From positions 1-64,000 of the forward strand of contig JADGNY010000008.1 in the NCBI GenBank assembly GCA_017883235.1: a stretch of DNA of 64,000 bases, written 5' to 3'. This DNA is from Thermoanaerobaculia bacterium (GTDB lineage Bacteria; Acidobacteriota; Thermoanaerobaculia; Gp7-AA8). Shown here one piece after another: positions 2,275 to 59,806 of the stretch (positions are counted from its first letter, which is position 1; every line of letters starts with the position of its first letter). Both the position numbers and the translations under genes were made by a program. Below the pieces are notes generated by a model. That model was not told the DNA's origin and did not search any database. It worked only from the letters and a program-made list of their open reading frames with translations.

Positions 2275-4230
2275 CTACCTGCGCTGCTGTTGCACCTGTC
2301 CCCGATCGTCCGATCGTCCGGCTCTGTGCAGCAGCGCGCAGATGACGATGACCACGATGATGCCGGCGACGATGGCAGCGGCACCAGTGAGATGCGTGAA
2401 GTCTTTCGACGCGAAGTGCATGCTCGCGAGCGTGCTGGCGAGACCGGGAAACTTTCCTGACGCCGCGACGAGAAACGCGATCAACACGCCCACCAGTCCT
2501 TCTCCCGCGATCATCCCCGAGGCGGCGAGCACTCCTGGATCGCTATCGGCCGGTTTGCCGTTTCGCTTCGCATCCACCATCCGCCGGACGATGCCGCCGA
2601 CGAATACCGGCGCGAGCGTGCCGAGAGGCAGGTAGATCCCGACGGCGAATGAGAGTCCGGGCAGGCCGGCGATGATGGCGCAGATCGACAGCGCCGAACC
2701 GGTGCCGACGAGCGCCCAGGGAAGCGAGCCGGAGAGAACTCCCTCGATGACGGTTTTCATCAGCGTTGCCTGCGGCGCGGGGAGCTCGGGCGATCCGAAC
2801 GTGAATGCCTGGCCGAGAAGGAGAACGGTTCCGGCGATGGCCCAGCAGGCGCACGCGGCGCCGAGGAATTGGCCGAACTGCTGCTTCTCCGGCGTGGCGC
2901 CGACGAGATAGCCGGTCTTCAGGTCCTGAGAGATGTCGCCGGCTTTTGAGGCGGCGATACAGACCACCGTGCCGACCGTGAGAATCGCGGCGCGCGCCGA
3001 CGGATCGGTCCAGCCGCACAGCACGAAGACGACGGAAGCGCCGAGCAAGGTCACGAGCGTCATCGCCGAGGTCGGGTTCGACGACACGCCGATCAGACCG
3101 ACGATGCGCGACGACACGACCACGAAACAGACGCCGAAGATGGCCACTCCGAGCGCTGCCACGAGTCGCGGCCCGAAAGCCATGTTGCCTGCCAGCAATC
3201 CGGGAACGGCCACGAGGGTGACCACTACCGCCAGCGGGACGACGACCACGATCCATGACGGCACATCGCGATCCGTGCGCGGCGTGCTCTCGCCGTCGTT
3301 CCTGGCCATTCCGCCGCGGCGCAGGCCGCGCATGACGGCGGCGAACGAGCTGGCCATGGTCGGCAGGGCCTTGATCACCGCCACGATTCCGGCCGCCGCC
3401 ACCGCGCCGGCGCCGATGTAACGCACGTAGCGCGACCAGATCTGTGCCGCTGTCATCGCCGCGATCGTCAGCTTCATCTCGGGAAACATCGGCCGCGGCA
3501 ATCCCGCGCCGAACGTGGCGATGAGCGGGGTGAGCACAATCGCCGAGATCAGACTTCCCGAGACCATGATCGCCGACTGCTTGTAGCCGAGGATGTAGCC
3601 GACGGCGAGCAGCGCGGGAGCGATCTCCAGCGCAAGCTCCGCCTTGGCGAGCACCGGCAGATGCATGGCCAACCCTGATGGGATAAGCACGAAGGCACCG
3701 ATCGCCAGCTTGATCGCCGCGCCCGCAGCCAGTCCGATGAAGATCCACTTCCCGCCCGACGTTCCCGTAGTCGTTGCCCGCAACACCTCCGCGCACGCGG
3801 TTCCTTCCGGATACGGCAGTTCATCGGCCGACTTCACGATCAGCAGACGCCGCAGCGGCACCATCGCCGCGATGCCGAGGAACCCGCCGAGAAGCGCCAG
3901 GATCGCCACCTGCCAGAACGGCGGGGCCATGCCCCACAGGAACAGCGCGGGAATGGTGAAGATGGTTCCCGTCGCCAGCGAGGAACTGGCGGAACCGATG
4001 GTCTGGGAGATGTTCGCTTCGAGGATTACCCCGTCGCGGCGGCCCGGCATCAGCTTGAACAGCGCCACTGTCAGGACGGCGATCGGAATCGACGTCGAGA
4101 CCGTCAGCCCAACCTTCAACCCGAGGTACGCGTTCGCGGCGCCGAAGATCACGCCGAAGAGGACGCCGGCGATGACGGAGCGCGTGGTGAGCTCGATGAC
4201 CGATTGGTCCCGCTCCGCTGCAATGCTCAT
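2275..4230 (-). CDS. OPT family oligopeptide transporter
   Basis: 651 aa and highly hydrophobic, with about 14-16 predicted membrane segments. The N-terminal part (ELTTRSVIAGVLFGVIFGAA, then NAYLGLKVGLTVSTSIP) is the characteristic start of OPT/YSL proteins. DISQDLKTGYLVGATPEKQQ is the conserved central cytoplasmic loop. The length matches bacterial OPT members. It sits in the inner membrane and by family imports oligopeptides or metal chelates with protons; the substrate cannot be read from sequence. The trypsin-like gene follows 61 bp downstream, a pairing compatible with peptide use. A palindrome GCGACCGGTCGC lies 17-28 bp upstream of the start. Confidence 0.85.
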   Translation of the reverse strand: MSIAAERDQSVIELTTRSVIAGVLFGVIFGAANAYLGLKVGLTVSTSIPIAVLTVALFKLMPGRRDGVILEANISQTIGSASSSLATGTIFTIPALFLWGMAPPFWQVAILALLGGFLGIAAMVPLRRLLIVKSADELPYPEGTACAEVLRATTTGTSGGKWIFIGLAAGAAIKLAIGAFVLIPSGLAMHLPVLAKAELALEIAPALLAVGYILGYKQSAIMVSGSLISAIVLTPLIATFGAGLPRPMFPEMKLTIAAMTAAQIWSRYVRYIGAGAVAAAGIVAVIKALPTMASSFAAVMRGLRRGGMARNDGESTPRTDRDVPSWIVVVVPLAVVVTLVAVPGLLAGNMAFGPRLVAALGVAIFGVCFVVVSSRIVGLIGVSSNPTSAMTLVTLLGASVVFVLCGWTDPSARAAILTVGTVVCIAASKAGDISQDLKTGYLVGATPEKQQFGQFLGAACACWAIAGTVLLLGQAFTFGSPELPAPQATLMKTVIEGVLSGSLPWALVGTGSALSICAIIAGLPGLSFAVGIYLPLGTLAPVFVGGIVRRMVDAKRNGKPADSDPGVLAASGMIAGEGLVGVLIAFLVAASGKFPGLASTLASMHFASKDFTHLTGAAAIVAGIIVVIVICALLHRAGRSDDRGQVQQQRR

Positions 4231-4258: not shown

Positions 4259-4550
4259 GCATGTCAACGCGGCGCGGTTGTGGGTTGCTTGGTTGCAAGG
4301 TTGCTGAGTTGCTGGGTTTCAGAGTCAGGCCGGACTTGCAGTTCGCTCTCAGCAACCTTGTGGCGCCGCTGCGCGGAGAGCTGATCGTCGATTTCGTCTG
4401 TTCGCCGGTCGCGCACGGGCGGATTCGCGGGTTGGATCTCAAGCGGTTCAGACAGACTGTGAGAAATGCCGGCCAGCCCAGGTCGCGTTTTCGTTGACTT
4501 GGGGCTGCGGCCGGTTGACCGATTGCACTGACCACAATAGTGGACATGCG

Positions 4551-4853
4551 GACCAGTTGGGTGATCGAGCCAATCAGTTGGGTGATCGGGCCGATCACTT
4601 GGGTGATCGGGCCGATCACTTGGGTGATCGAGCCGATCACTTGGGTGATCGAGCCGATCACTTGGGTGATCGAGCCGATCACTTGGGTGATCGAGCCGAT
4701 CACTTGGGTGATCAAGCCGATCACTTGGGTGATCGAGCCGATCAGTTGGGTGATGGCGCCGATCAGTTGGGTGATCGAGCCGATCAGTTGGGTGATCGAG
4801 CGGATCAGTTGGGTGATGGCGCGGATAAGTCAACTGATGGAATGGATCAGTAG
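4551..4853. repeat. 21-bp tandem array A1, 13 full units plus a degenerate end
   Basis: The unit is close to GATCACTTGGGTGATCGAGCC, repeated head to tail with exact 21-bp spacing. Each consensus unit holds a dyad GATCAC-TTGG-GTGATC (6-bp arms, 4-nt loop). Edge units carry CAG for CAC, weakening the stem. Because 21 is a multiple of 3 and the unit has few stops, several frames stay open across it and read as heptads (for example WVIEPIT), which explains several spurious long ORFs. It lies between the OPT gene and the SDR remnant. Confidence 0.95.
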
Positions 4854-4901
4854 AACTTGAGCGCCGGGCACTCACTTCCGGGGCGGGCATCCATCGAGAC
4901 C

Positions 4902-4940
4902 GCACGACCCCGCAACCGCGAGACCGCGCAACCGCCTTCT
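4902..4940. repeat. Partial copy of palindromic element B
   Basis: GACCCCGCAACCGCGAGACC and following bases match the right arm of the element found complete near 7.9, 36.1, 49.7 and 59.7 kb. It separates array A1 from the SDR gene remnant. Confidence 0.7.
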
Positions 4941-5027
4941 GAAACCACGACCCCCATTGATATCGATCGTCATGCCGTTCAGGTAATCCGCCATCGGCGA
5001 GGCCAGGAAGAGGATGACGCCGGCTAC
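4941..5027 (-). pseudogene. C-terminal remnant of a short-chain dehydrogenase
   Basis: Directly after the TAA stop of the TPR-like gene the same strand reads VAGVILFLASPMADYLNGMT followed by IDINGG, the standard C-terminal signature of classical SDR/FabG-type reductases. No start and no Rossmann domain lie upstream, since the preceding bases are the intact end of another gene. After INGG the frame runs into element B sequence. It is a decapitated gene tail, left by a deletion or by the insertion that brought in the repeats. Confidence 0.7.
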
Positions 5028-6086
5028 TTAACTCGCGCTGTCGAACACCTTGCGAATCTTCTTCGAGAAGTATCGCTGCGGTAAGCCGCCGTTCCACTTG
5101 TGCAGGGTCTTGGCTTTGCGGAATGACTCCATCGCCTGGTTTTTGTAGTTGTCGTCGGCTTCGAAGGCGTATTGGGAGTATTGCGACGCGCCGAGGAAGG
5201 CCCAGATCCAGCCGTTGGCCGGCATCTCGCTCGAAAGCCTTTGGAACTTCGTCGAGGCCTCGTCGAAGTCGCCGCGGAAGTAGCTCTCCAGGGCATCGCG
5301 GACGCGGCGTGAGGAATCCGCCAGCACGAGGGCGCTGGCCTGCGTCGGACGGGTGGGGATGGCGGTGGGTTGTGGGGCGGGAGCGCCGGGCGCGGGCGCG
5401 AGGTCGGCGATGGCGGCCGCATTTTCCGCCGAGGCGATGGCGGCGTTCAGATCGTCATTCGACCGCGGGTTCGCGTTGCGGGTCATGGCATCGGTCAGTG
5501 ACTGCGTGGCCTGCGTGTACTGCGGCGTGTTGCCGGCTTTTCGCTGCTGCGCCGCGCCGATGCGCGACTTCGCCTGATTGATGGCAGCGATGGCCCGCTG
5601 GCGCAGCGCGGGATCGATCGCCGGCGCTGCCGGCTGCACCGGCATCGGAACGGGAGCCGGCACGATGGTGCGCGGCGCCGGTGCCACGGGTTGCGGCTGC
5701 GGCTCGGGCGGCGGAGCGCTGGCCTGCGCGAGCTTGGTCTTGGCGCGCGCCATGAGCGTCTCGATCGACCCGAGATCCTGCTCGCCGGCACCGCTGGATT
5801 GCTCGAGGTCGGCGACGGCCTGTTCGTACTTGCCGGTGTTCAGATAGGCCACGGCACGGTAGTAGTAGGGGTGATAGCTGATGAAGATCGCGCCGTAGGT
5901 TCGCGCCTTGTCGTTCTCCTTGGGATTGCCCTTGATGGCCGCGGACATCCTCTGGATGACAGCACCCCACTTGCCGTTTCTCGCGGCGGCAACTCCCGCG
6001 TCGTAGTCGTCGTACCACGATGCCAGAGCCGCGCTCGCGGCGAGCAGCAGGGCCAATCCGATCGTACAGGTGCGCGTTGCTCTCAT
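5028..6086 (-). CDS. Secreted TPR-like, proline-rich protein at the end of the kinase operon
   Basis: 352 aa with a signal peptide (hydrophobic stretch LALLLAASAALAS). Residues about 20-120 have TPR character (AIKGNPKENDKARTYG, YYRAVAYLNTGKYEQAVADL). A proline/alanine linker (about 120-155) follows, then a helical segment, a second PAPGAP linker, and a final helical repeat domain (DALESYFRGDFDEASTKFQ). It overlaps the upstream kinase by the ATGA configuration, so the two are translationally coupled. It is likely a periplasmic scaffold or output partner of the kinase; no enzymatic motif is seen. Confidence 0.65.
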   Translation of the reverse strand: MRATRTCTIGLALLLAASAALASWYDDYDAGVAAARNGKWGAVIQRMSAAIKGNPKENDKARTYGAIFISYHPYYYRAVAYLNTGKYEQAVADLEQSSGAGEQDLGSIETLMARAKTKLAQASAPPPEPQPQPVAPAPRTIVPAPVPMPVQPAAPAIDPALRQRAIAAINQAKSRIGAAQQRKAGNTPQYTQATQSLTDAMTRNANPRSNDDLNAAIASAENAAAIADLAPAPGAPAPQPTAIPTRPTQASALVLADSSRRVRDALESYFRGDFDEASTKFQRLSSEMPANGWIWAFLGASQYSQYAFEADDNYKNQAMESFRKAKTLHKWNGGLPQRYFSKKIRKVFDSAS

Positions 6087-7920: not shown

Positions 7921-8082
7921 CTCCGGGGTTGCGCGGTTGCGCAGTCTCGCGGTGGACGTGCCGCGAACCTCGCTACCGCATTCAAAGGTCTCTTTTATAC
8001 GGGTTCTCGGGTTCTCGCGGTCCCGACGTCTCGCGGTGCGTTTACCGCGAGACCCCGCAACCGTGAGACCGCGCAACCGCAC
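7921..8082. repeat. Palindromic element B copy between two kinase genes
   Basis: The left part reads GCGCAGTCTCGCGGTG, the right part ACCGCGAGACCCCGCAACCG and GAGACCGCGCAACCGC. These are inverted arms around an AT-richer centre. It fills the 167-bp gap between the kinase-FHA and kinase genes, the longest gap but one in this operon. The transcript would fold into a large hairpin here. Confidence 0.75.
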
Positions 8083-16865: not shown

Positions 16866-17202
16866 TGGAGGCAGTCAACCTGCCTCTCGGAGGCAGTTAA
16901 TACGCTCCTGGAGGCAGTTAACACGCTACCGGAGGCAGTTGAACAGCCTCTCGGAGGCAGTTAATACGCTCCCGGAGGCAGTTAAACAGCCTCTCGGAGT
17001 CCGTTAATACGCTCCTGAAGGCAGTTAACACGCTCCCGGAGGCAGTTAAACTGACTCCCGGAGGCAGTTAACACGCTCCCGGAGGCAGTTAAACAGCCTC
17101 TCGGAGTCCGTTAACTGCCTCCGGGAACGAGTAACTGACTCTGGGAACGAGTCAACTGCTTCTGGTGAAGCAGCTTACTCGTTCCCAGAGTCAGTTACTC
17201 GA
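16866..17202. repeat. Array A2: 21/22-bp repeats based on GGAGGCAGTTAACACGCTCC
   Basis: About 15 imperfect units, alternating 21 and 22 bp. Two unit types (ending ACGCTCC and CAGCCTCTC) interleave, and the right end degenerates into ACGAGTAACTG-like units in inverted orientation. Each unit has a GTTAAC dyad, and unit junctions form CTCC-C-GGAG dyads. No credible protein is encoded. It occupies the region upstream of the CHASE2 kinase. Confidence 0.85.
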
Positions 17203-17213
17203 TCCATTCTGGA

Positions 17214-17560
17214 GAGGAATCGATCCAATCTGATGCGGTATCGATCCAATCTGATGCGGTATCGAATCAATCTGATGCGGCATCGATCCAATTTGATGCG
17301 GTATCGAATCAATCTGATGCGGTATCGATCCAATCTGATGCGGTATCGAATCAATCTGATGCGGCATCGATCCAATTTGATGCGGTGTCGAATCAATCTG
17401 ATCCGGTATCGATCCAATTTGATGCGGTATCGAATCAATCTGATGCGGCATCGGTCCAATTTGATGCGGTATCGAATCAATCTGATGCGGCATCGGTCCA
17501 ATTTGATGCGATTTCGGTCCGTTTGGAGCGGTATCGGTCCAATTTGATGCGATTCCGGTC
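17214..17560. repeat. 21-bp tandem array A3, about 16 units
   Basis: The unit is GATGCGGTATCGATCCAATCT with variation at GGT/GGC and GATCC/GAATC. The GATCC and GAATC versions tend to alternate, giving a 42-bp higher-order period. It contains the dyads ATCGAT and GATGC-G-GCATC. It is the reverse complement of array A5 at 55.3-55.8 kb. Several frames are open and read as heptads such as MRYRSNL; I regard these as non-coding. Confidence 0.93.
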
Positions 17561-17599
17561 CCAGCCCTGGCGAAGCCGGCGAAATTTGCCGCGTTCGCA

Positions 17600-17663
17600 C
17601 GTCGTAACGTCCAAACTCCAGTGCCGGCGAAGCCGGCTTGACTGGAGATTGGACGTTACGACG
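17600..17663. repeat. Long hairpin: 23-bp inverted repeat with one mismatch
   Basis: The left arm CGTCGTAACGTCCAAACTCC plus three bases (17600-17622) pairs with 17641-17663. The loop region itself holds GCCGGCGAAGCCGGC. A related half-site (CTGGAGATTGGAC) occurs at 16831-16843 near the other edge of the island. Confidence 0.8.
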
Positions 17664-36058: not shown

Positions 36059-36190
36059 TGCGGTTTCGGGGCCTCGCGGTTGCTTTTGAGGTCTCGTGGT
36101 TGCGGGGTCGCGCGGTTGGTGAGTTGCAGAGTTTCTGATCCAACCACACACCGCGAGACCGCGTAACCCCGAGACCGCGAGACCCCCAAA
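36059..36190. repeat. Palindromic element B copy
   Basis: The left part has GCGGTTGC, GAGGTCTCGTGGTTGCGG and GCGCGGTTGG. The right part has ACCGCGAGACCGCGTAACCC, then GAGACCGCGAGACCCC. It lies between the V4R-like gene and a metallo-beta-lactamase remnant. Confidence 0.75.
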
Positions 36191-40137: not shown

Positions 40138-40345
40138 AGCTCAAAAAGCTCGTTCATGAGCTCCGAGAGCTCGTTAGCGAACTCGAGGAGCTCGTTCGTG
40201 AACTCCGAGAGCTCGTTAGCGAACTCGAGGATCTCGTTAGCGAACTCCGAGAGCTCGTTAGCGAACTCGAGGAGCTCGTTCGTGAACTCCGAGAGCTCAT
40301 GAACAAGCTCGGAGACCTCGTTCACGAGCTCGGAGTGCTCGCTCT
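40138..40345. repeat. 21-bp tandem array A4, about 9-10 units
   Basis: The unit is close to GAGCTCGTTAGCGAACTCGAG. On the minus strand GAGTTCG-CTAA-CGAGCTC forms a 7-bp stem (one G-T wobble) with a 4-nt loop in each unit. Two unit versions alternate (42-bp super-period). The minus frame reads as amphipathic heptads (LEFANELSEFANE), reminiscent of a coiled coil. It joins the kinase remnant directly and lies about 160 bp upstream of the 40.5-kb gene. Confidence 0.93.
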
Positions 40346-49721: not shown

Positions 49722-49878
49722 CGGTTGCGGCGGGGTCTCGCGGTTGCGGGGTCTCGCGGTGGAGTGCGTCAACGCAACCATAACCTCGAACCTCCCATCC
49801 AAGCGTTCAACGTTCGGCAATTGGACTACTTGGCAACCGCGAGACCGCGTAACTACGCAACCACGTAACCGCGCTGAT
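49722..49878. repeat. Palindromic element B copy upstream of purM
   Basis: GGGGTCTCGCGGTTGCGG and GTCTCGCGGTGG on the left; ACCGCGAGACCGCGTAAC, then CGCAACCACGTAACCGCG on the right, enclosing an AT-richer centre. It fills nearly the whole divergent gap and ends 12 bp before the purM GTG, so it must contribute to or contain the purM promoter region. Confidence 0.8.
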
Positions 49879-55288: not shown

Positions 55289-55770
55289 GTTTAAATTGGT
55301 CCGAAATCGCATCAAATTGGATCGATGCCGCTCCAGACGGATCGATGCCGCATCAAATTGGTCCGAAATCGCATCAAATTGATTCGATGCCGCATCAAAT
55401 TGATCCGATACCGCATCAGATTGGATCGATGCCGCATCAGATTGATTCGATGCCGCATCAGATTGATTCGATACCGCATCAGATTGATTCGATACCGCAT
55501 CAGATTGATTCGATGCCGCATCAGATTGATTCGATACCGCATCAGATTGATTCGATACCGCATCAGATTGATTCGATACCGCATCAGATTGATTCGATAC
55601 CGCATCAGATTGGATCGATGCCGCATCAGCTTGATTCGATACCGCATCAGATTGATTCGATACCGCATCAGATTGGATCGATGCCGCATCAGATTGGTTC
55701 GATGCCGCATCGTTGGATCGATACCGCTCCAAATTGGATCGATATCGCATCAAATTGGAGCGATGCGCCT
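55289..55770. repeat. 21-bp tandem array A5, about 22 units
   Basis: The unit is GATTCGATACCGCATCAGATT, with GATGCC/GATACC and GATTG/GATCG variants. It is the reverse complement of array A3. It has dyads GATGC-C-GCATC and ATCGAT. Terminal units are diverged (AAATTG, GCTCC). Several frames stay open and give artificial heptad proteins. It lies between the convergent ABC exporter and MCE genes. Confidence 0.94.
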
Positions 55771-55811
55771 GGCCTCAATGGCCTGAACTTAAGCTTAAGC
55801 GCGTTACGGTC

Positions 55812-55949
55812 GGAGCGCTGGCGTCTCGCCGGCTGGCCCGGCGTGCGTCCCGCCGCCGGGTTACCCGCGAATGTTGGGAGTCTTGCCGGTTCGGGGGCGA
55901 GACGCCTGGCGAGATGCCCCGTGGCCAGCCGGCGAGACGTCAGCGCTCC
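55812..55949. repeat. Element C, copy 4, 138 bp, diverged
   Basis: The left end matches the 12.8-kb copy exactly for 26 bp except one transition; the right end has one change (GACGTCAGC). The central part carries an insertion GGCGAGATGCC-like duplicate. It directly follows array A5. Confidence 0.85.
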
Positions 55950-55969
55950 GGAAAACCGCCTCCGCCCGC

Positions 55970-56085
55970 CCGGCAAGACTCTAAACATTTGCGGTAACCC
56001 GGCGGCGGGACGCACGCCGGGCCGGCCGGCGAGACGCCAGCGCTCCGGAAAACCGCCTCCGCTCGACCCGGCGAGACGCCACGGC
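55970..56085. repeat. Rearranged element C pieces
   Basis: From 55970 the middle of element C runs inverted relative to copy 4 (CGGCAAGACTCTAAACATTT, GGTAACCCGGCGGCGGGACG). It ends at 56046 in an intact right terminus, followed by a further GGCGAGACGCC fragment. This indicates repeated rearrangement of the family at this site. Confidence 0.7.
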
Positions 56086-59704: not shown

Positions 59705-59806
59705 GCGGGGGCTTCGCGGTCTCGTGGTTGCGCGGTCTCGCGGTGCATTCCCGCAACTTGCCCCCACCGCGAGACCGCGTAACCGTGAGACCCCGCAACC
59801 GCGTCA
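59705..59806. repeat. Palindromic element B copy between galU and the BNR protein gene
   Basis: GGTCTCGTGGTTGCGCGGTC and TCGCGGTGC on the left; ACCGCGAGACCGCGTAACCG, then GAGACCCCGCAACCGCG on the right. The element occupies most of the divergent intergenic region, so both promoters abut or overlap it. Confidence 0.8.

Follow-up and report, generated by a model that had tools for sequence, protein, structure and literature searches.

Intergenic 21-bp tandem arrays in a Thermoanaerobaculia genome resemble a bacterial form of satellite DNA

Results

A 21-bp array in a gap of decayed gene space

The window analyzed here, a stretch of 64,000 nucleotides, belongs to a Thermoanaerobaculia genome (G000; 6.92 Mb in 246 contigs), and its closest named relatives are metagenome bins of Acidobacteriota. 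For comparison we refer throughout to G001 and G002, two genomes of the same genus. In a 797-bp intergenic gap of the window, between an OPT transporter gene and a gene for a TPR-like protein, lies a tandem array that we call F1 (Table 1). A previous sequence-only reading had described thirteen exact 21-bp units at this place, and this was borne out both by TRF (4557-4817, period 21, 12.4 copies, 95% match, 0% indels) and by a unit read-out, in which exact 21-bp steps could be followed from 4557 to 4829. An array of this make-up agrees with the description of a minisatellite (head-to-tail units of ~10-60 bp in several copies); it is not a CRISPR, as its units abut and unique spacers are absent.

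Table 1. Positions of genes, gene remnants and tandem arrays in the window.
Feature	Position	Strand	Remarks
OPT oligopeptide transporter (PF03169), flanking gene	2275..4230	-	
27-residue remnant, xanthine-dehydrogenase-like gene	4360..4440	+	tblastn 85% over 27 aa, E 9e-9
Partial leading unit of F1 array	4549..4556	+	TRF 42-bp row 4549-4851
F1 array	4557..4829	+	13 head-to-tail 21-bp units, consensus TTGGGTGATCGAGCCGATCAC, indels 0, family F1
Degenerate last unit of F1 array, TCAACTGATGGAATGGATCAG	4830..4851	+	homologous to end of the copy on contig C69
Non-repeat terminus beyond F1 array	4852..4894	+	common to the C69 copy of F1; 82% over 50 bp
TPR-like protein, flanking gene	5028..6086	-	TPR_1 scores below its cut-off
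A2	16867..17165	.	21/22-bp units, family F2; last units turn round, facing next array
A3	17199..17551	-	family F3, like A5, which has the opposite orientation
A4	40147..40341	+	21/42/84-bp units; same family as L128:12514-12685
A5	55308..55757	+	family F3

The claim that every unit encodes a hairpin proved slightly too strong. The strong hairpin core, GATCAC-TTGG-GTGATC, is present at 7 junctions, with CAC as the last letters of the units that start at 4578-4704. A GATCAG ending leaves a stem of 5 bp, stems are shorter in the later units, and the units at 4746 and 4809 (GATGGCGC) form a hairpin even weaker than the 5-bp stem. The structure of the array as a whole exceeds chance even given the repeat, with RNA folding z values of -3.2 (+) and -3.4 (-) relative to 60 arrays with shuffled unit columns. 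Plain dinucleotide shuffles yield z values of -10 to -15, which overstate the folding because such shuffles also destroy the repeat. Rfam gave no match in the window, promoter- and terminator-like sites by the array numbered 0 and 1, the same as in shuffles, and no similar DNA was found in the plasmids and phages searched. A derivation of the unit from 7-bp repeats was not apparent either, self-identity at shift 7 not being raised (0.219 vs 0.240).

The gap looks like decayed gene space, because it contains what appear to be pieces of genes at 4360-4440 and 4932-5027. On the same side of the OPT gene, G001 lacks the array and has an intact counterpart of the first piece, a gene of 778 residues that reads as a xanthine-dehydrogenase-type subunit; gene loss in G000 and gene gain in G001 would both fit. 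The second piece is probably a gene remnant as well, since its reverse strand resembles the last part of a short-chain dehydrogenase (GVILFLASPMADYLNGMTIDINGG). These about 95 bp are 95% identical to contig 56:116841-116938. Close to them is a degenerate octamer-like repeat (ACCGCGAGACCCCGCA), present in the window at 4899-4935, 8044-8080, 36150-36186, 49730-49760 and 59766-59803 and dispersed at about 50 places in G000.

Other arrays of the window and their relatives

The sequence-only reading had further listed arrays A2 to A5. The 21/22-bp units of A2 were confirmed by unit read-out. A3, A4 and A5 had been described as sharing the period and differing in sequence; these arrays exist and have the period, but A3 and A5 are of one family, being 88% identical on opposite strands. 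A3 forms the core of a dispersed element at about 17167-17621, and its family, F3, has 17 matches in its own genome, A5 itself included, with more distant ones in G002. Family F1 has 6 matches in its own genome, itself included; genomes of the same family gave no match, and one 30-bp match was found in G024. The relatives of F1 retain the half TTGGGTGATC and lack the dyad (p about 0.75 for those on C68 and C168).

Several other repeats were seen in the neighborhood of arrays. The A2/A3 junction is a near-perfect inverted repeat (AACTGACTCTGGGAACGAGT ... ACTCGTTCCCAGAGTCAGTT; 17134-17196), at which the A2 units turn round. Beside A5, at 55811-56048, is another dispersed repeat of about 95 bp, and pieces similar to it occur in both orientations near several other 21-bp arrays. 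On contig 68 of G000, a 36-bp repeat (GTCCGAATGAGTGCGCCGCTCGAAGGCGATTGCGAC) recurs at periods of 69-75 bp in several blocks of L007:7552-14623 that resemble CRISPR arrays; two 21-bp arrays lie a few kb away.

The period is shared across the sampled arrays and the sequence is not

Tandem arrays were counted by a fixed TRF rule (at least 80 bp, at least 3.5 copies, period up to 60) in unbiased stretches sampled from the genomes. The outcome that the sequence-only reading had set against itself, other periods being equally common, was not observed: 25 of the 29 arrays in 547 kb of G000 had a period of 20-22 or 40-44 bp (45.7 per Mb), as did 17 of 19 in G002 (33.4 per Mb). This extrapolates to roughly 300 such arrays in the whole G000 genome and 200 in that of G002. 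No such array was found in the 359 kb sampled from G001, in 160 kb of G012, in the further family and class members sampled, or in 400 kb of unrelated high-GC control replicons (a Paraburkholderia chromid and a Curtobacterium plasmid). G009, G016 and G097 had 2, 1 and 1, with 21-bp units of other sequences. The period is thus a peculiarity of a few genomes. Many contigs end inside 21-bp arrays (e.g. L015:1-204, L016:1-162, L019:3-453 and L072:1-163), so the arrays appear to break assembly and their true lengths are probably larger; array lengths and copy numbers from these draft assemblies are minimal values. Decayed arrays were sought in the remaining intergenic DNA of G000, where the autocorrelation at lag 21 is high (z 4.0), a signal inseparable from leftover coding signal because multiples of 3 are high too. 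A search of the open literature, with most subscription journals outside its coverage, gave no report of such arrays.

The 59 arrays of G000 and G002 sort into 33 sequence families, some of which are common to more than one species. Over the arrays the period has a mean of 21.08 and an sd of 0.33, with 36 of 54 at 21.0. Variants occur around 20, 20.7, 21.4 and 22, as do 41 and 43, and there are higher-order periods of 42, 43, 84 and 107, in steps of 2, 4 or 5 units. Where arrays adjoin in one gap they are of different families in 6 of 8 pairs. What the arrays share is thus their period and not their sequence, in line with the constraint on period that had been proposed from the window. Of note, 5.2% of between-family pairs have at least 13/21 matches compared with 1.7% in shuffled units, a slight similarity beyond chance that fits descent with drift.

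Arrays turn over quickly and can be copied whole

Matched sites in the three congeners differ in the presence or absence of arrays, the variation between related genomes that is typical of minisatellites. One site measures 578 bp with an array in G002 and 10 bp in G001; another measures 790 bp with two arrays in G002 and 69 bp in G000. No target-site duplications were seen at these two empty sites. The G002 counterpart of the A5 site lacks the array, and none of the comparable sites examined carries an array in the other congener. Arrays thus turn over quickly between close relatives. They can also be copied whole with short flanks, because A3 and its copy on C1 have about 30-70 bp of common flank on either side, and F1 and its copy on C69 have about 45 bp in common past the last unit. 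As the non-repeat terminus of F1 is common to both copies, F1 copies have spread with a short flank.

The arrays are intergenic, non-coding and not classically bent

By simple in-house gene calls, 52 of the 59 arrays overlap no predicted gene, and 10% of array bases lie in predicted genes, versus 82-85% of the genomes. Flanking genes are in tandem for 23 arrays, convergent for 11 and divergent for 10 (124, 47 and 57 for all gaps), which gives no clear preference for a gene orientation. All six frames are closed in 17 of the 59 arrays, and open frames are scarcer in 21-bp arrays than in shuffled units (3.0 vs 4.3). At 10.5 bp, the A/T signal (harmonic 2) is depleted to about half of what shuffled units give (0.053 vs 0.099, t -5.3), so the arrays are not classical bent DNA, and we rejected phased curved DNA as an explanation. 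Dyads are enriched over the arrays (mean 5.19 vs 3.90), with 17 of 59 at p<=0.05. The set comprises families that are not independent, however, and many of its arrays lack dyads beyond chance. The dyad had been put forward as a constant feature, which does not hold, as members of the F1 family other than the array itself have none beyond chance.

Discussion

Taken together, the data are best explained by a fast-turnover, non-coding, intergenic minisatellite superfamily with a two-turn monomer (21 +/- 1 bp) that has spread in the form of short elements; we put the probability of this reading at about 0.6. Units would multiply and be homogenised by whole units at a time, either through slippage during replication or through unequal exchange, and array copies would seed new intergenic sites, sometimes at decayed genes. 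Since a homogenised indel would be rarer than a substitution, the sequence may drift while the period is inherited. Self-complementary or helically phased units probably slip or recombine more readily, which might account for both the dyad excess and the persistence of the 21-bp step. The data can be explained without invoking a cellular function. Among the three suggestions of the sequence-only reading, a replication-slippage habit fits best; a conserved protein-binding or nucleoid-anchor site is not supported, as the comparable sites are empty in the other congener and there is no gene-orientation bias.

Inheritance from an old superfamily with drift is our first choice for how the period is held, ahead of fixed-step synthesis or phase selection. 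Against it, most families show few signs of a common descent and may have arisen independently at 21 bp, in which case inheritance would leave the period unaccounted for. Furthermore, ordinary slippage has no preference for 21 bp, and the empty matched sites are compatible with either gain or loss. We also considered, as a tentative possibility, that some members of this acidobacterial class have a specific process, be it DNA synthesis in a fixed two-turn step or sequence-blind selection for two-turn phasing, that repeatedly makes 21-bp arrays from unrelated intergenic sequences. If so, a fixed-step or phase-selecting process would give these bacteria genome-wide satellite-like DNA. In the synthesis version, a dedicated or peculiar DNA synthesis would copy any sequence in a fixed step of ~21 nt, and arrays would be born independently with the same period. 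One period in many dissimilar units, neighboring arrays of different families in the same gap, the abundance of arrays in G000 and G002 next to their absence from the G001 sample, and the differing 21-bp sequences of G009, G016 and G097 all speak for this; but dispersed copies with common flanks mean that some arrays spread by copying, some families are common to different species, and the idea comes without a candidate enzyme, so that by itself we consider it rather unlikely. We are equally doubtful that the arrays are phased platforms for a putative DNA-binding or nucleoid protein that would place a dimer every two turns, always on the same side of the helix, while demanding little of the sequence. 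Its attraction lies in a mean period equal to two turns, the enrichment of dyads and the families of copies within one genome, and it is weakened by the 33 different families, the many arrays without dyads beyond chance, the depleted 10.5-bp A/T component, and sites that are neither conserved nor biased in orientation.

Two better-known kinds of repeat have much less to recommend them. If the arrays were REP/BIME-like palindromes moved by a REP-associated tyrosine transposase, their extragenic position, units of about 20 bp, partly palindromic nature and many copies would be expected, and Y1 transposase genes are indeed present (9 matches in G000). However, the F1 consensus, read cyclically on both strands, lacks the GTAG or CGTC tag expected at the foot of the stem, and a palindrome is missing from the F1 relatives and significant in 17 of 59 arrays where nearly every member should have one. 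G001 has 8 Y1 matches and no array in its sample, and of three Y1 loci scanned in G000 one (L161) is near an array; we thus regard this origin as very improbable. Least likely of all is that 21 bp stands for seven codons and the arrays encode heptad-repeat peptides. Although a 21-bp period keeps the frame, and frames are open at F1 (ORFs 4494-4853 and 4540-4860), periods of 20, 22, 41 and 43 are also found, both strands lack an open frame in 17 of 59 arrays, open frames are fewer than in shuffled units, and most arrays are outside predicted genes. Heptad-repeat coding was rejected, the frame not being kept throughout the arrays.

The unit lengths of bacterial tandem repeats are usually scattered. 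The arrays are like bacterial minisatellites and intergenic VNTR loci in their intergenic, head-to-tail units of 10-60 bp, their imperfect copies, higher-order steps and quick change between relatives, but differ in that one period dominates a whole genome, with dozens of dissimilar units and 33-46 arrays per Mb. Eukaryotic satellite DNA combines a fixed monomer length with drift between loci, homogenisation within them and higher-order repeats. The arrays are like it in all of these respects, whereas they measure hundreds of bp and occupy gaps between bacterial genes. Borg tandem repeats form many recently formed regions per genome with different units, are absent at the same place in relatives and are virtually absent from the host genome; they are perfect, A-rich, about half in genes and varied in unit length (PMC9879509). 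Our arrays likewise form many tandem regions with different units that are missing at the same place in relatives, but their copies are imperfect, they lie between genes and their unit length is tied to about 21 bp. REP/BIME elements are short extragenic repeats, partly palindromic, in many copies and sometimes in tandem (PMC3733652). Arrays here are similarly short-unit, extragenic, partly palindromic and multicopy; they differ in the untagged F1 unit, the inconstant dyad and the long regular head-to-tail arrangement, and no tie to a transposase gene was found.

Altogether, the arrays are more suggestive of a bacterial equivalent of satellite DNA than of a conserved control element. The array-rich G000 beside its congener G001, with none in the sample, is a natural contrast for what sets a repeat period, candidates being helical phase in recombination, a polymerase habit and selection. 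The finding would extend satellite-like genome behavior to bacteria.
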